A DNA stretch of 42,619 nt from a virus, in the IMG/VR virus record IMGVR_UViG_3300042923_000463, positions 1 through 42,619 of that record. One strand, written 5' to 3'. Position numbers and translations under genes: made by a program. The notes under the pieces are model-generated. The model did no database searches, had not been told where the DNA came from, and saw only the letters and a list, made by a program, of their open reading frames with translations. This document shows positions 13,546 through 39,419 of the stretch, one piece after another (position 1 is the stretch's first letter; every line of letters starts with the position of its first letter).

Positions 13546-13556
13546 CGTGTCCTAAT

Positions 13557-13569
13557 CCCTCTCGAAAGG
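13557..13569 (+). repeat. CCCTCTCGAAAGG leader motif, copy 1
   Basis: This 13-mer ends in the AAAGG Shine-Dalgarno of the 38-residue gene at 13576. The same 13-mer occurs at 27521-27533 on the plus strand, and on the minus strand at 27483-27495 and 39345-39357. Confidence 0.6.
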
Positions 13570-13575
13570 TTACGT

Positions 13576-13692
13576 ATGAATAAGCTCATCGATCGTTTTC
13601 TCGACCGCCACGCGCTCGTCACCCTGTATCTGCTGGCCGGCGCTGGCGCGTTCCTCCTTACCTCCCTCATCGTACTGGAATGTCAATGTTGA
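13576..13692 (+). CDS. Small single-pass membrane protein, 38 aa
   Basis: It starts at the ATG preceded by GAAAGG. After a short charged N-terminus (MNKLIDRFLDRHA) comes a single hydrophobic helix (LVTLYLLAGAGAFLLTSLIV), ending LECQC. It is probably inserted in the inner membrane. It is the first gene after the regulated promoter at 13495-13523. Function is unknown. Confidence 0.6.
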   Translation: MNKLIDRFLDRHALVTLYLLAGAGAFLLTSLIVLECQC

Positions 13693-18121: not shown

Positions 18122-19669
18122 TCACACCTGATAGCGAATGATGCAGACGCCGGGGCGGCCAGCGCTGCCAACTAGAACGGGCACATAATCGCCCGGAATA
18201 TTGGTGCTTCCTTGCACCCCCGCGCCACCTGCGCCGTAGCCCGATCCGTCAACGAGGGTGCCTGAACCACATGGGGCGCCATTGCCCATCTGACCGCTCG
18301 CCCCCGAGCCCGAGCGATAGACTGCTACGAAGTTGTTACCACTGAGCGATACGCCGCTGACGCTGTAGGCATCCCCCACCACGCCTGCAATGTTAATATC
18401 ACCGCCTGTCGCCGGCATGGCTCCGTCTTTGCCTCCGCTGCAGGAGATAGTCGTGAACCCCGTAAGTGTGAAAGACGAATCCCCGCCGTTGTTGCGCGTA
18501 CCATTCGTGGTCGCCGCCCCGCCAACCCCCACCACTACACTGGCAGTCGAGCCTATGACCGCGCCGCTAAACTGTTTCTTTGCATATGCCCCGCACGCAC
18601 CGCCAGGGCTGCTGGAACTCATGCCGTTCTGCCCGCCCCCGCAAATCTCCACTTCGAAGTCGGTAGCGGGCACGTTCCACATTTGGCTCGACGTCAGCAC
18701 CTGAACAACCGTGCGCGAGCCTACCGTGGCTTTGCCATCGGCGCGGCGGATCCGGACCCGGAAGAAGGTCGCGGTAATAGCGGTGACGTCCAATTCGTCA
18801 TTGGTGCGGACGGTCTGCGCGCCGCCGAACACGATCATGTTAGCGTTGGTCTGGATCGTCGCCGTCTGCCCCGATTGTGCCATTACCAGTGTTCTCTTAG
18901 CCCCGGCTTGCGGTGCCGGGGGGAAGTTGGTGATATTCCCCGAACCCACAAGAGGGATAAGGTTGCCCGCAGGGCTCCAAATATCAGGCGATGTCGACAC
19001 CGGAACAGTGGCGGATCGTAACTCGTTCAGAGCGCCGTCCAAATTGCCCCCGGTTAGGCCGCCGCCGGTTGGCCCTGGGGGGCCCTGCACACCGGATACC
19101 GTGATAGCCCAATTACTCCCCGGCTGCCCCGCGGTGGCCGGGTTCACCGCGAGAACGGTAACCGCCAGGCTAGTACCGCTGTAGCTGTTCACCATCGCCG
19201 CCATCCACCGCGTCCCGTTGGCCGGGTCGACAATATAAACGTTCTCGTTGGCTATGAACTGTTTCCCAGCAGGAACGGAGAATGTTTTGGCCCCGGTGCC
19301 AATAGTGTGCGAGCTGGTGCTGGTCGCAGTGAGCGCGCTGACATTGTTCAGGGCGGCATCGCGTGCGGTCTCTGCGCCGGTCCTGGCTGTCTCCGCGCCG
19401 CTTCGCGCAGTCTCAGCACCAGTTCGGGCTGTCTCTGCGCCGGTGCGTGCGGTCTCGGCACCCGTCTTCGCTGTGCCTGCAGAGGTGGCGCTGGATGCGG
19501 CATCATTCGCATTGGCCGCCACGTTCACGGCTACCGCGCGGAATTGCGACACCGCAGTGGTGAGCCACATAATAAACGCGTCGACGCGGCTGGAGAACGT
19601 GGCCCGATCCCCGCGCTGAATTGGCGGAGTCGGGACCGGATCGATCGGCGGTGGATTCTGGACGGCCAT
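18122..19669 (-). CDS. Tail fibre protein with Gly-rich C-terminal domain, 515 aa
   Basis: The N-terminus (FSSRVDAFIMWLTTAVSQFR) is like virion-attachment regions of tail fibres. Residues 69-103 are five heptads of the form TGAETAR, a trimeric fibre coiled coil. The middle has a GPPGPTGGG turn. The C-terminal 170 residues are Gly/Ser-rich (EICGGGQNGMSSSSPGGACG and following), like the Gly-rich receptor-binding tips of some fibres and adhesins. It overlaps its neighbours by TAATG. Confidence 0.8.
   Translation of the reverse strand: MAVQNPPPIDPVPTPPIQRGDRATFSSRVDAFIMWLTTAVSQFRAVAVNVAANANDAASSATSAGTAKTGAETARTGAETARTGAETARSGAETARTGAETARDAALNNVSALTATSTSSHTIGTGAKTFSVPAGKQFIANENVYIVDPANGTRWMAAMVNSYSGTSLAVTVLAVNPATAGQPGSNWAITVSGVQGPPGPTGGGLTGGNLDGALNELRSATVPVSTSPDIWSPAGNLIPLVGSGNITNFPPAPQAGAKRTLVMAQSGQTATIQTNANMIVFGGAQTVRTNDELDVTAITATFFRVRIRRADGKATVGSRTVVQVLTSSQMWNVPATDFEVEICGGGQNGMSSSSPGGACGAYAKKQFSGAVIGSTASVVVGVGGAATTNGTRNNGGDSSFTLTGFTTISCSGGKDGAMPATGGDINIAGVVGDAYSVSGVSLSGNNFVAVYRSGSGASGQMGNGAPCGSGTLVDGSGYGAGGAGVQGSTNIPGDYVPVLVGSAGRPGVCIIRYQV
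19361..19465 (-). repeat. Five 21-bp repeats encoding TGAETAR heptads
   Basis: Five consecutive 21-bp units encode TGAETAR four times and SGAETAR once in the fibre gene. The DNA copies differ at third positions while the protein is almost constant, so the heptad is under selection and is not a recent slippage product. Confidence 0.8.
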
Positions 19670-25300: not shown

Positions 25301-26576
25301 CCAGCACCTCGATCAGCATGCGGTAGTAGCCTTCTTCGGCCGCCGTAAGTTTCACCTTACCGCTGGCCAAGCTTTGATCCAACGCCATTGCCAGCTTCTG
25401 GCTTTCGGTCAGCTTGGCCAGGCCGGCCGCCTCGCGGTCGCTTTCCGAGATCTTGCCTTGGATGGCATCTATCAAACCTTGATAGGCATCGGCCTGCCTC
25501 TTGGCGTCCTTGCTGGTGGTGTTGGCCGCCACGGTGCCTGCGTTGGTCGACGTCACCAGGGCTTGGACCACCTCCCCGCCAGCGCCTGTCCACACGTCGC
25601 CGATCGTCTTGGCCGTGCTGGTGAAGACGTCTTTCATATCGGCCTGCCAAGCGTGGCCGATGTTCATGGCTTGCTTGAATTCCAGCTGGAACAGTGCGAC
25701 AAGCTGCGCGCCCAGCATGCCGATCGTTTTGCCGGCCACGTTGAACACCTGGCTGATCAACATGCCCGCGGTGTATATCAGCTTAAACCCGGTACCGATC
25801 ACATCGGCCGCGCCGCGCACTTTGTCACCGGTGGTGATGAACTGCAGCATGGAGCCGGTGAGGGAATTCAGGGTGGGGAGCAACTGAGCGGCTACCTGGC
25901 GAGCGACGCCCTGTGATGCCGCGCCCATCAAATCGAGCGTATCGTTGAAGTCGCCGGCGGCGTTGACCGTCTTTTCGTCGAACGTCAAGCCGAGCTTTTC
26001 GGCCATCTCGTTCATTTCGCGCAGGCCCTCGCTGCCCTCGTTGAGCAGGGGTATCAGTTCTGCGCCGCTCTTGCCGAACAGTTCCACCGCCAAAGCGGTC
26101 TTGGCCGTGCCATCCTGCATCGCCGAGAACGCATCGGCGGAATCGCGCAACACGTCCACGTTCGTACGCAAGTTGCCGTTGGCGTCGCGCGTCTTGATAC
26201 CGAGCCGGTCGAACTCCTTACCGCCGTCTGCGATTTTCTTGGATAGCTTGATCATGGCCCCCTCGAAGGCGCCGGCTTCCGTGCCGCCCTTCTGGAACCA
26301 CATCTGCAGACCGGCAATGTCCTTGATGGCGATGCCGGTGCGCTGGGAGATATCAGATACTGCATCGGTGGCGTCGATGGCGCCCTTTATCCACCCGGCA
26401 AATGCGCCAGCTGCCATGCCGACAGCCAGCGCACCGAGTGCTTTTGTTGCGGTGTTCACGGAATCGCGGATTCCGTTCATGGCGCCGCCTACCGTCTGGC
26501 GGGCTTGCTCCATGTCCTGCCGGAGTTGCGCGATGTTGGCCGCCAATCGGATTTCAATGTCGCTGACGATTGCCAT
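22389..26576 (-). CDS. Tape measure protein with C-terminal DUF4214, 1395 aa
   Basis: Sets tail length, and the tail shaft assembles around it. The N-terminal 200 residues (IRLAANIAQLRQDMEQARQT, then a hydrophobic segment ALGALAVGMAAGAFAGWI) are typical. Long coiled coils and Ala-rich helices follow, with a hydrophobic segment near the middle (AIPIIGWIIAGMNAANGFF). Near residues 1285-1335 IEALYNSVLGRTSDAAGLSY and YLDLLKNGASLANIEQDIRN form a DUF4214 domain, unusual in a tape measure. At roughly 0.15 nm per residue the tail would be about 200 nm. Confidence 0.92.
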   Translation of the reverse strand: MAIVSDIEIRLAANIAQLRQDMEQARQTVGGAMNGIRDSVNTATKALGALAVGMAAGAFAGWIKGAIDATDAVSDISQRTGIAIKDIAGLQMWFQKGGTEAGAFEGAMIKLSKKIADGGKEFDRLGIKTRDANGNLRTNVDVLRDSADAFSAMQDGTAKTALAVELFGKSGAELIPLLNEGSEGLREMNEMAEKLGLTFDEKTVNAAGDFNDTLDLMGAASQGVARQVAAQLLPTLNSLTGSMLQFITTGDKVRGAADVIGTGFKLIYTAGMLISQVFNVAGKTIGMLGAQLVALFQLEFKQAMNIGHAWQADMKDVFTSTAKTIGDVWTGAGGEVVQALVTSTNAGTVAANTTSKDAKRQADAYQGLIDAIQGKISESDREAAGLAKLTESQKLAMALDQSLASGKVKLTAAEEGYYRMLIEVLGASEDTARVNKEIEESNKRAAKGADDLAKFMKQVAAERDKDVETAVKEADANEELARTFGMTKTALAELAVVRAQDNLERAKTEGLDYDEIQRLEKIIEAKQRSADAIANVQDLEQQRELWKSIEDTAHQTFVSILDGGKDAATRLKDTFKNIFFEWLYQQTLKKWIVNLEGSVSSGGGLSSIASAFGGGSSGGSGLLGSASSLLSIGKTIYSGFSTGIASSLGTMITQLGTTFGSTAVASFGAGMSGAAGTGLASGTAAGAGATAASAIPIIGWIIAGMNAANGFFKQGFDIQNGSVKDPLGLGSGIKMVDKIFRGIGLSNTAANIFSGQAVFAKLFGRANPVVESEGLFGSFDGRGVNTGTFANILEKGGVFRSDSRYKAGQYSSSEFDAGLTEVYNQIKAVTGGLAQTLGVSTEKLGDFSKAFEITFDKDATKRQAQIEQLFATLGDDLATYLIPNIATFAQTGETASATLQRLAGEFQSVNAVFQMIGVDGTKAFGTLGNASIEARARLIALAGGVDALATQTTFFAQNFLTEAEQMAPVQKAVADQLAALGYAGVKTSDQFKGAVMDLVNGGGLTTEAGARTYAALLALAPAFAQVTSYTEQIAAAQVSAAQAAKDAAEAAAQAAAEAAANAVALLQSTAGAMFNELRRSVDAERDGVQKSFTKLMAGIQASIDTTTAKITDLQALSAALRGANVAGVSDMQSSSRRAAADAQITAALAIARASGVLPKADDLKDALAAVAIDTADQFSSMVDYQRAQLRTQNSIEELAGITDTELSVAQRTLIALQDQKTAAQSMFNAQMEKYDEMLTKAQQQIDAINGIGQVQPLIDAFNNFAASIGSALQNPTIGGQPSVTGQTQIEALYNSVLGRTSDAAGLSYYLDLLKNGASLANIEQDIRNSAEYAARTGSIYNPQQSGTMSAASGDQAAINQRMEENTARTAAAIEQLAQQFNQVSAGGNSLAVETV

Positions 26577-27078
26577 TGCGCTTATCCTTTTTCTGGTTTC
26601 GTTCTTCTGCTTCGGCCTTGGCTACAGCCTTCATCTGCTCCAGGTTGCGCGCGCTTTGCTGCTTGCGCACCCATCGCCACTGGTTCGCGGCGCCGCGGTA
26701 CGGCGGTTCTGCACCCCATTCCTTGGCCTTGTGCATCTCCATGTGGTAGATGCGGGACAACTGGATCAGCGCCCGCATTTCCCATGGCTCGAACTCCAGG
26801 CCCAGCACATATTCCCAGCCGGGGATATCCTGGGGCTCGATGGCCGCGCCGTTCTTCACCGGTCCAAGCTCCATCAGGAATTCGACCAGGTGCCCGCCGA
26901 AGCCGAGCGGTGGAAGTAGAACGGTGCTGCCGGTTGCTTCTATCTGCTCACGCCGGATCGGCTCCGGCGCTCTATCCTGCTCGGGCTTCTTCGGGTTCTT
27001 CGGCCACTCGGGCGAGGTGTTCAGCCATGCGACGTATCGCACATACTCGCCCAGTGAATCCGTTAGCCCGCGTAGAAG
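26554..27078 (-). CDS. Tail assembly chaperone, T part of the G-T frameshift product
   Basis: This frame has no good start of its own (a GTG at 27042 lacks a Shine-Dalgarno) but is open back to the slippery site at 27078-27084. It supplies 174 residues (VAWLNTSPEWPKNPKKPEQD and onward to NGNRQRH) to the fusion, giving a 307-residue G-T protein. In lambda the G-T protein bridges tape measure and tail tube. Its stop lies 23 bp inside the tape measure gene. Confidence 0.85.
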   Translation of the reverse strand, partial: LLRGLTDSLGEYVRYVAWLNTSPEWPKNPKKPEQDRAPEPIRREQIEATGSTVLLPPLGFGGHLVEFLMELGPVKNGAAIEPQDIPGWEYVLGLEFEPWEMRALIQLSRIYHMEMHKAKEWGAEPPYRGAANQWRWVRKQQSARNLEQMKAVAKAEAEERNQKKDKRNGNRQRH

Positions 27079-27476
27079 TTTCCCCGGTCAGTATGGTACT
27101 TGTCGACCGCCGCGGCGACGTGGCCCATGAGCGGGTCCATGTAGATCGCGCGCAGCGCTTCGTTGCCGGTCTTGCCTTCGTACTCCAGGCCCTCGGCGTT
27201 GGTGCCGCGCGTGATCGCCATCAAGAACTTGGCGCGGTCCTTGATCTCGTCCATTTCGTCACGGGTGGATTTCTTGCCGGCCATCTGCGAGAACACCTCG
27301 GACTTCTGCGCCTTCTGGTATTCGTGCAGCGCGCGCATGGCCTCCTTGGTGCCGGGGCTGGCAACCGTGATAGTCCAGGGCTGGCCGTTATCCAGGAGGA
27401 TTACCTCTCCTTTTGCATCGGGGATTTCGCACGTGCCTTCTTCGGCAATTTTGTACTTGCTGGGATTGAAGCTCAT
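27063..27476 (-). CDS. Tail assembly chaperone G, 137 aa
   Basis: The unshifted product, between tail tube and tape measure genes. MSFNPSKYKIAEEGTCEIPD begins a small domain, and a helical part follows (KEAMRALHEYQKAQKSEVFS). ATG at 27476 with GAAAGG six bases upstream, inside a 13-mer that is exactly complementary to the loop of the upstream hairpin. Expression is probably controlled there. Confidence 0.85.
   Translation of the reverse strand: MSFNPSKYKIAEEGTCEIPDAKGEVILLDNGQPWTITVASPGTKEAMRALHEYQKAQKSEVFSQMAGKKSTRDEMDEIKDRAKFLMAITRGTNAEGLEYEGKTGNEALRAIYMDPLMGHVAAAVDKYHTDRGNFYAG
27078..27084 (-). promoter_or_regulatory. Programmed -1 frameshift site, G GGA AAC
   Basis: In the zero frame the codons read CGG GGA AAC TTC; the heptamer GGGAAAC has the X XXY YYZ form. 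After a one-base slip GGA re-pairs as GGG and AAC as AAA, entering the 175-codon T frame. The zero-frame stop is four codons later. Lambda uses GGGAAAG at the same place in its G gene. Confidence 0.85.
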
Positions 27477-27482
27477 TTCATA

Positions 27483-27558
27483 CCTTTCGAGAGGGATGGC
27501 ACCAGAGCCCGCCGCGCGCTCCCTCTCGAAAGGATTGTCCGCGCGGCGGGTCGGTGCC
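27483..27558 (-). promoter_or_regulatory. Hairpin whose loop is complementary to the Shine-Dalgarno of the tail chaperone
   Basis: On the minus transcript an outer stem (27553-27558 with 27498-27503) and an 11-bp inner stem (27540-27550 with 27508-27518) enclose a 21-base loop holding CCTTTCGAGAGGG. Fourteen to thirty bases further on, CCCTCTCGAAAGG (27483-27495) includes the Shine-Dalgarno of the 27476 gene. The two 13-mers are exact reverse complements. No T-run follows the stem, so this is not an intrinsic terminator. Confidence 0.75.
27521..27533 (+). repeat. CCCTCTCGAAAGG motif, copy 2 (loop copy)
   Basis: Sits in the loop of the hairpin above, antisense to the leader copies. It is inverted relative to the copy at 27483-27495. 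Confidence 0.7.
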
Positions 27559-27584
27559 CAGTTACGCCCGAGTGGGCGAATTCG

Positions 27585-28085
27585 TTACGGGGTGGTGTCT
27601 TCCACTGGCACCACCGGGGTGGCCGCGGCGATCGTGTCGGACTGGCGCAGCAGCGTCATCGTGCCGGTGCGGGCGTCGTTGTTGCCGCCCCCGGCTTCCT
27701 GGAACGTCGACACTTGGGCGCTGAAGTACGACACGCCGTTGTTCTGGTCGACCACTGCGAAGCCATACATACCATAGCCTTCGCTGGCTGCTGCTGCGGT
27801 GATCTGGCCAGGTTCTTCCGGCAGCCACACCACCGGGAAGTCGGACGAGCCGAAGGTGAATTCGCCCTTCTTCTCGCGGCTGCGGCCGGAGCTGACCACG
27901 GACAGCGTGGAGTTGGTGTACGAGCGGCCGTTGTAGGTGCCCACACTGGTGATCGTGATCTCTTCGGCGCCGGTGCCAAAGAAGGTTTCCCATGCGGCTT
28001 CGGTGTTCGTGGCAGGGCGCCCTACCTTGATGAACAGCCGCGTACCGGCATAAGTTTCGTAGTCGTCTTCAAATTCCAATGGCAT
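27585..28085 (-). CDS. Major tail tube protein, 166 aa
   Basis: The start at 28085 has AGGAG at good spacing; the frame stays open further upstream without a start signal. The protein (FEDDYETYAGTRLFIKVGRP, VGTYNGRSYTNSTLSVVSSG, FGSSDFPVVWLPEEPGQ) is a beta-rich tail tube subunit by content and position between tail terminator and tail chaperone genes. The C-terminus is Pro/Val-rich (AAATPVVPVEDTTP). Confidence 0.8.
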   Translation of the reverse strand: MPLEFEDDYETYAGTRLFIKVGRPATNTEAAWETFFGTGAEEITITSVGTYNGRSYTNSTLSVVSSGRSREKKGEFTFGSSDFPVVWLPEEPGQITAAAASEGYGMYGFAVVDQNNGVSYFSAQVSTFQEAGGGNNDARTGTMTLLRQSDTIAAATPVVPVEDTTP

Positions 28086-28151
28086 CTTGCTCTCCTGTGT
28101 AAAAGCCCGCTCGCGGAGTGCGATACGGGCGGGCTGAAGCATTCCGGTATT

Positions 28152-38505: not shown

Positions 38506-39164
38506 GGCTTCTGCTTCCCGCAATACTTCGCCTTCTGCTCGGCCGTCAGCAATGCTACCTGCAGCAAATAGCATTGCTTCAATTCATCCCAGTCCGATGA
38601 CATTTCCTTTTGCCCGGTCTGCATATCCGTCCAATGCACCCACACAGCAGCCGGCAATTCGCTAACCGCTTCCTGCTCCTCGGCCACGTCGACATGCTGC
38701 ACCTTGCGGCCGCCGACGCCTTCACTGGGTTGTTCGCAGCCTACCGATACAACTTCCTTGAAAGCTGGGTGCCTTCCATTCGGAAGATGGAGAGGGTTCT
38801 GCGCCAAGTACTCATCAAACTGTTCCGCCTGGCGATGCGCCTTGTAGCGCGCAAACGACTTGAACCTGCCACGCTCGGTCTGAGTAAGCGCGGCCCAGTC
38901 ATCATGCAACTGTTCCAAGTTCAGGTCATCGGGCACGAACACCGGATCCTCTTGCTCCTGCGCCTCGGGCTGTGCCATCTGCCCCATGCGATGCGTGATG
39001 CCCACCAGGTCGTCAGGTGTCAGTGCGATGTTCAGCTGCACGCTAAACACGCCGTCGATAGCGCCGCTCTGCTTGCCGAGGATAAGCTGGTCGGGCGGGA
39101 TGCCCCAGTAGGAGGCCGCTGCCTGGAGAAACATCGAGGAGGTGTCTAGGATGGCGGTGTTCAT
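38502..39164 (-). CDS. Hypothetical protein, 220 aa
   Basis: No family recognised. The N-terminus is Ala/Ser-rich (NTAILDTSSMFLQAAASYWG), a middle helical part is charged (WAALTQTERGRFKSFARYKA), and the C-terminus has two Cys (KQCYLL, KYCGKQKP). The ATG overlaps the stop of the 58-residue gene. It is part of the block between the collagen-like gene and terminase. Confidence 0.6.
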   Translation of the reverse strand: MNTAILDTSSMFLQAAASYWGIPPDQLILGKQSGAIDGVFSVQLNIALTPDDLVGITHRMGQMAQPEAQEQEDPVFVPDDLNLEQLHDDWAALTQTERGRFKSFARYKAHRQAEQFDEYLAQNPLHLPNGRHPAFKEVVSVGCEQPSEGVGGRKVQHVDVAEEQEAVSELPAAVWVHWTDMQTGQKEMSSDWDELKQCYLLQVALLTAEQKAKYCGKQKP

Positions 39165-39337
39165 TTGGCGACCTCTTCTGCAGTTACTAGGCCGAGTGCT
39201 ACCAAGCCCACTTCACCGGCCTTAGCCACTACATCACGGATCGCCTGTGCCGCAATCGAGACACGCTCTTGCTGGGCGCTATCCAGATCCGATATTGCGC
39301 CTTTGATCATGAGCAACTGCATTTGTTCCTGCTTCAT
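39161..39337 (-). CDS. Small hypothetical protein, 58 aa
   Basis: ATG at 39337 with AAAGGA upstream, within the third CCCTCTCGAAAGG motif. Predicted mostly helical (MKQEQMQLLMIKGAISDLDS, QAIRDVVAKAGEVGLVALGL). The stop overlaps the start of the 220-residue gene. Function is unknown. Confidence 0.6.
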   Translation of the reverse strand: MKQEQMQLLMIKGAISDLDSAQQERVSIAAQAIRDVVAKAGEVGLVALGLVTAEEVAK

Positions 39338-39344
39338 TGTTCAT

Positions 39345-39378
39345 CCTTTCGAGAGGGAAAGCGCCCAAAGCCGGGCGC
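39345..39378 (-). promoter_or_regulatory. GC hairpin followed by the CCCTCTCGAAAGG leader motif
   Basis: On the minus strand GCGCCC (39373-39378) pairs with GGGCGC (39361-39366) over a 6-base loop, then TTT and the 13-mer (39345-39357) with the Shine-Dalgarno of the 58-residue gene. The hairpin could end the collagen-gene transcript weakly or fold with the leader, as at 27483-27558. Confidence 0.5.
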
Positions 39379-39419
39379 CGTACATACAATGTACCACTAT
39401 TTCGTGGTTGTGTATAGCA

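Follow-up and report, generated by a model that had tools for sequence, protein, structure and literature searches.

A hairpin located between the tail tube gene and the following chaperone-like gene of a phage is probably an antisense RNA element, which would mask leaders containing a Shine-Dalgarno (SD) sequence in cis, as a pseudoknot, and, in free phages, also in trans. In related phages a change in the hairpin loop is accompanied by a change in the leaders; this suggests an RNA switch by which several phage genes would be translated less. No earlier description of such an anti-leader hairpin was found in the open-access literature. If the proposal is true, a single hairpin together with a common ribosome-site motif would constitute a phage RNA regulon, and the expression of the tail genes would be coupled in a simple way to a lower expression of several others.

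The window, i.e. the whole stretch of DNA analysed (42,619 nucleotides), is a circularised phage record (G000), the ends of which overlap by 127 nt and the structural genes of which lie on the minus strand. The features at the hairpin locus are as follows.

27585 to 28085, minus strand: tail tube gene (major tail protein), 166 aa, matching phrog_158 (major tail protein, E = 1.9e-6)
27565 to 27578, minus strand: small hairpin P0, CGCCCACTCGGGCG, between the tail tube stop codon and the main hairpin, from the folding of relatives
27498 to 27558, minus strand: candidate antisense hairpin of 61 nt, made of P1, P2 and a large apical loop, from folding, conserved position and stem covariation
27558-27553 (GGCACC) and 27503-27498 (GGTGCC), minus strand: basal stem P1, 6 bp, coordinates verified
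27550-27540 (CCCGCCGCGCG) and 27518-27508 (CGCGCGGCGGG), minus strand: stem P2, 11 bp, coordinates verified
27520 to 27533, minus strand: putative loop antisense CCTTTCGAGAGGGA, exact reverse complement of the leader, from loop-leader covariation
27483 to 27496, minus strand: putative cis target, the SD leader TCCCTCTCGAAAGG of the chaperone-like gene (ATG at 27476), from the permutation of 21 loop-leader pairs
27063 to 27476, minus strand: chaperone-like ORF, 137 aa, between the tail tube and tape measure genes, named by position
27078 to 27084, minus strand: slippery sequence GGGAAAC, from a slippery site scan
26554 to 27042, minus strand: next-frame ORF overlapping the chaperone-like gene, from the ORF list

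The original prediction had proposed a stem of 11 plus 6 bp, the loop of which carries a 13-mer exactly complementary to the SD leader of a tail chaperone gene. Both stems were verified on the minus strand, as was their location, with the tail tube gene on one side and the frameshifted chaperone-like gene (GGGAAAC at 27084-27078) on the other. The exact complementarity was confirmed as well, its length being 14 nt and not 13. The hairpin starts 27 nt past the tail tube stop codon, its 21-nt apex contains CCTTTCGAGAGGGA, and the SD sequence GAAAGG forms the end of the leader. At the DNA level, the arms 27483-27496 and 27520-27533 constitute an exact inverted repeat of 14 nt with 23 nt in between. 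Folding of 161 nt across the hairpin yielded -59.4 kcal/mol (z = -2.79), and -42.6 was obtained for the hairpin by itself. An inverted repeat of 14 nt was present in 1.1% of the letter shuffles of the intergenic stretch, self-overlapping palindromes being included in this count; it is the comparative evidence presented below, and not the shuffle count alone, that excludes chance. The window contains the 13-mer four times, i.e. in the chaperone leader, in the loop (antisense) and in sense before the start codons at 13576 (+) and 39337 (-), for an expectation by chance of far less than one exact match per genome. The last two copies, which have the same orientation as the leader, had been missed in the original prediction.

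The downstream gene is called chaperone-like only from its position and from the overlapping next-frame ORF with GGGAAAC, because it has no Pfam match and no significant PHROG match. No Rfam family was matched by the window or by seven relatives at the gathering score, and a lax threshold gave chance-level matches only. The possibility that the stretch is coding was rejected, the frame being open in the window and broken in relatives. Elsewhere in the tail region, another terminator-like hairpin followed by TTTT lies directly ahead of the tail tube gene (28103-28138, minus strand), and the ORF 18122-19669 (minus strand) contains four 21-nt repeats arranged head-to-tail at 19362-19481.

The hairpin was found at the same tube-chaperone position in approximately 40 relatives, comprising viral contigs and Oxalobacteraceae-type prophages. 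A near relative (IMGVR_UViG_3300042904_000219), with about 93% identity around the locus, has kept all four copies of the motif. Scanning for the loop-plus-leader pattern resulted in three more contigs, with DNA identities of about 65-76%, bearing the same element at the same place, one of which (L095) has an entirely different stem sequence. Alignment of the tail tube added 27 viral loci and one Janthinobacterium prophage, and 18 genomes with matches were then obtained among 392 genomes of the GTDB family of this prophage. A long hairpin is present between tube and chaperone at almost every viral locus and in most prophages with good matches, and folding placed a small hairpin at the P0 position in most viral relatives. 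No such long hairpin was found in the gap of L212, L214 and L215, and the prophages L208, L210, L211 and L218 carry a plain terminator-like hairpin instead of the antisense hairpin, with no complementary leader. Cultured phages were searched by nucleotide sequence and by tblastn with the tail tube, and no relative was found. The bare 14-mer matched 91 stretches in IMG/VR, mostly in unrelated DNA and with no excess over chance.

Comparison of these sequences indicates that base pairing is under selection both in the stem and between loop and leader. In the stem (24 sequences, 14 pairs), 12 pairs changed on both sides, with a score of 0.552 versus 0.234 and no equal among 500 shuffles; 92.1% of the cells were paired, versus 71.4% after shuffling and 37-54% in slid registers. 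Such compensatory changes distinguish a structured RNA element from a chance repeat. The loop-leader helix (20 sequences) behaved likewise: both sides changed in 7 of 9 pairs, 93.3% of the cells were paired versus 70.7% in shuffles (0 of 500), double-change cells numbered 39 versus 11.6, and slid registers gave 27-55%. Since this alignment was registered by hand, which favours structure, an alignment-free test of duplex energy was added. For 21 non-redundant loop-leader pairs the cognate duplexes summed to -405.7, compared with -292.0 (sd 14.5) for permuted pairings. With kinship ignored, none of 200,000 permutations was as low as the cognate pairing; the corresponding counts were 0 of 100,000 for the viral set alone and 11 of 100,000 for the prophages alone, the latter appearing reassuring given the uncorrected relatedness. 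The weak members L118, L199 and L217 were retained in the tests, and an earlier energy test had used 11 pairs. The helix accommodates G.U pairs as well as bulges, and examples of loops and leaders from relatives are TATGGGAGG/CCTCCCATA, TTGAGGGAG/CTCCCTCAA, TTCGTAGGG/CCCTACGAA and CTTCGCGGG/CCCGCGAAG. Because stem and helix covary and no permutation in 200,000 was equally stable, the loop-leader pairing itself is under selection. Covariation of loop and leader in related phages, proposed as a check of the original prediction, was thus observed in the energy permutations (0/200,000) as well as in the helix shuffles (0/500), and loop and target covary as they would in an antisense RNA.

The two further copies of the leader in the window, each lying before a small ORF, are described below.

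13556 to 13569, plus strand: candidate trans target leader 1, TCCCTCTCGAAAGG, exact motif (13-mer at 13557-13569)
13576 to 13692, plus strand: 38-aa ORF behind leader 1 (MNKLIDRF..., with a hydrophobic stretch), shortly past a helicase-loader-like gene
39345 to 39358, minus strand: candidate trans target leader 2, TCCCTCTCGAAAGG, exact motif (13-mer at 39345-39357)
39161 to 39337, minus strand: 58-aa ORF behind leader 2, between the tail fibre and terminase genes, matching phrog_18620 (membrane associated, moron/host takeover, E = 4e-10)

Directly ahead of leader 2 lies a GC hairpin with T's behind it (39359-39380), so that this leader, too, comes immediately after a terminator-like structure. 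We then surveyed 20 genomes, i.e. the window and 19 relatives, for the antisense of each phage's own loop before other start codons. Matches of at least 10 nt preceded one to three other start codons in 18 of the 20 genomes, amounting to 30 leaders in all, whereas shuffled loops gave about 2 leaders on average and 12 at most. Complements of the loop at distant targets thus exceed chance in the free phages. They are absent from the prophages, seven neighbourhoods of which showed the cis pair and no convincing trans leaders, and G025 and G026 had no trans leader of significance; trans action is therefore not universal. As the prophages show the cis pair only, this pair is the common element, to which trans leaders were added in free-phage lineages.

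Among 24 sites outside hairpins, a count from which the exclusion step had removed most window-type sites, 21 are in sense orientation, 4-22 nt ahead of an ATG, and for most targets the spacing between motif and ATG is about 18-21 nt. Each leader motif type is nearly restricted to phages with the matching loop, and sequence comparison showed that loop and trans leader motif switch in step, even before orthologous genes. For example, the MPQLIA... gene (50% identity between G004 and G014) carries the leader type of its own phage in either genome, CCTCCCAAGG in G004 and CCTCTCGAAAGG in G014, and the G017 copy of the 58-aa gene, 44% identical to that of the window, has the leader type of G017. 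In phages of types other than that of the window, the fit to the loop is often better for trans leaders than for the cis leader: perfect trans matches reach 15 nt in G027 and 14 nt in G020, G021 and G022, the cis leaders of which contain a G.U pair or a bulge. The 13-mer was also considered as a mere repeated ribosome-site cassette, which was rejected in view of the relatives, where it is the loop, rather than the cis leader, that the trans leaders match. The target genes vary from phage to phage and mostly lack an assigned function. A weak Pfam match suggests a small HTH-like protein for a target in type B, one in G018 looks ParB-like by sequence alone, and others code for small proteins without known function. 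In a near relative an extra copy of the leader motif (G013:C1:10132-10143, minus strand) lies before ATGAATTTTGG, with no long ATG ORF behind it.

The geometry of the locus restricts the contact in cis. In the window only 2 nt join stem and leader, and across the members the stem with P1 closed comprises 17-21 bp and the linker 2-11 nt, which in several members is too short to bridge all of the closed stem, so that by estimate the full loop-leader helix would not form in cis as long as P1 is closed. The pseudoknot of thirteen pairs with the fully closed stem of at least 17 bp, as originally put forward, therefore appears untenable, and pairing would need either P1 to open or a contact in trans. 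With P1 open, a hand estimate gives a linker of about 12-17 nt, for which an H-type pseudoknot looks possible. In the window the closed hairpin with a free leader has a predicted energy of -44.3 and the nested alternative of -38.8; rough sums, which include no penalty, for the pseudoknot are -65.4 if P1 is formally retained and -51.1 if it is opened. Of seven cases, six were predicted to be more stable as a closed hairpin with the leader unpaired than in the nested form; only L106 slightly prefers the latter. According to these models, P1 may gate the cis contact. Pairing in trans is free of the limits set by P1 and the linker, in keeping with perfect matches of 10-15 nt in trans as opposed to cis matches that, outside the type of the window, are mostly of 7-9 nt.

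We propose that the loop pairs with start-codon leaders sharing one motif that overlaps the SD sequence, so that the ribosome could not load. In cis, its partner would be the leader of the chaperone-like gene that follows, either through a pseudoknot once P1 opens or between two transcripts, and in the free-phage lineage the same loop would pair with one to three further phage leaders. The hairpin would be carried by the tail mRNA, presumably late and abundant, and the outcome would be less chaperone relative to tube, together with a few other phage genes turned down late in infection. Repression of initiation is the natural reading, since the pairing covers the SD sequence or the stretch just before it. 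From the sequences we infer repression as the sign of the effect, the RNA-RNA contact in the cell, the late timing and a possible processing into a free small RNA. In many relatives a T-rich run follows the stem, and termination there could release an RNA ending with the hairpin.

This run (5-6 T in 8 nt) occurs at nine loci (L098, L199, L200, L202, L204, L205, L207, L213 and L216), and in L098 and the prophages L200, L202, L204, L205, L207, L213 and L216 the hairpin may, judging from this arrangement, terminate transcription between the tube and chaperone genes. One could therefore regard the element mainly as a terminator or attenuator behind the tail tube gene, the loop sequence being secondary, all the more so as L208, L210, L211 and L218 have only a terminator-like hairpin at that place. 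The window and the near types lack the T run, and in the window the scan for intrinsic terminators (a GC stem followed by a U run) detected no such site at the hairpin on the minus strand. Moreover, termination leaves the loop-leader covariation and the trans leaders unexplained. Although both roles are mutually compatible, a mainly terminating role appears very unlikely. A DNA operator, i.e. a site for a phage regulator whose inverted copy in the hairpin would automatically be complementary, is just as improbable. The window motif is nearly palindromic (CCTYTCGARAGG), and operators too would change along with their regulator, but 21 of the 24 non-hairpin sites are in sense orientation 4-22 nt before an ATG, the hairpin copy is invariably antisense and tops a stem that has changed in a compensatory, RNA-type manner, and the helix admits G.U pairs and bulges. 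The same constancy of orientation and start-codon spacing, with the RNA-type stem covariation, also disfavours the recombination or protein-binding inverted repeat that had been offered as the alternative in the original prediction.

A protein-binding RNA motif or an mRNA-protecting hairpin, with one RNA-binding protein recognising leaders and loop, would agree with the conservation of the stem at the RNA level and with the small hairpin that the leaders alone can form (CCU...AGG, seen in sequence). As loop and leader are reverse complements and not the same sequence on the same strand, a single protein would have to read both, and we hold this to be extremely improbable. The control of the chaperone-like gene in cis only, by a pseudoknot or riboswitch-like element, with the motif shared by other leaders as a favoured ribosome-binding cassette, deserves more weight, and we nevertheless consider it rather unlikely. 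It accounts for the presence of the cis pair in nearly every hairpin member, including prophages without trans copies. However, the trans leaders of types B, C and G027 are not copies of the cis leader, because it is the loop that they match, and the motif type follows the loop type in non-homologous contexts as well as before orthologues. The base pairing of the original prediction is thus supported, and its view of a switch of one gene in cis only is too narrow, since the same leader precedes two more genes and the trans leaders of relatives often fit better.

An antisense hairpin acting in cis and in trans can be compared with several known systems. In SD-sequestering pseudoknots, such as those of SAM-II class riboswitches, a loop-leader helix covers the SD sequence; here there is no evidence for a ligand pocket or aptamer, and the loop also fits distant leaders. 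The small CI RNA of phage P4 (seqB-seqA-seqC) is likewise a single RNA with complementarity to at least two leader sites, and it acts on transcription termination in immunity.

The c4 antisense RNA of phages P1 and P7 acts in a structure-dependent manner through loops that are antisense to the surroundings of a phage ribosome-binding site; it blocks the translation of its target, the ant mRNA, and controls immunity (PMC12197685). The hairpin described here resembles it in mechanism, as a structured loop is antisense to the ribosome-binding region of a phage gene, and differs from it by lying in the tail operon (tube/chaperone-like) instead of targeting ant in an immunity operon, and by having one antisense loop for several leaders. 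The sar RNA of P22 and the OOP RNA of lambda are phage antisense RNAs that each repress a single phage gene (PMC12197685), whereas the present hairpin loop fits several leaders over about 10-15 nt.

The start-associated sequences (SAS) of cluster K phages provide a further comparison. They have been described as a 13-bp motif that immediately precedes many start codons and is conserved far beyond the level of a usual ribosome site, with about 16 sites and, in some phages, a reverse copy (PMC3203893, PMC11373665). Papers of 2011, 2024 and 2025 call their role unknown, ill-defined (PMC11373665) or in need of experimental verification (PMC12699233). A conserved motif in constant orientation just before several start codons is also found here. 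The motif, GGGATAGGAGCCC in cluster K versus CCTCTCGAAAGG, CCTCCCAAGG and others here, differs, as do the host and the number of sites, so that the hairpin system looks like SAS/ESAS without being a member. In the K1 phages Anaya and Adephagia, we found that the lone reverse SAS sits in the apical loop of a strong hairpin.

Adephagia JF704105, 58694, minus strand: reverse-strand SAS (L190), from hairpin folding
Anaya JF704106, 59882, minus strand: reverse-strand SAS (L189), from hairpin folding

The Adephagia hairpin lies in a non-coding gap where late transcription reportedly starts; the hairpin setting of the reverse SAS is not mentioned in the passages on SAS of these three papers. The match persists in Validus (12/13) and Enkosi (11/13). 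No anti-SAS loop was found in K2 ZoeJ or K3 Pixie, none matched at the corresponding position of Hurricane, Shandong1 and Marshawn, and the SAS-bearing Microbacterium phage AnnaSerena (cluster EF) showed no convincing anti-SAS hairpin. The parallel with cluster K1 is a lead, not a proof. It is conceivable, if still doubtful, that late mRNAs of unrelated phages carry a single anti-leader hairpin shutting off a motif-marked set of genes, the hairpin described here and the K1 reverse SAS being two independent inventions. If true, this would explain the purpose of the start-associated sequences, for the role of which the hairpin suggests a concrete answer.
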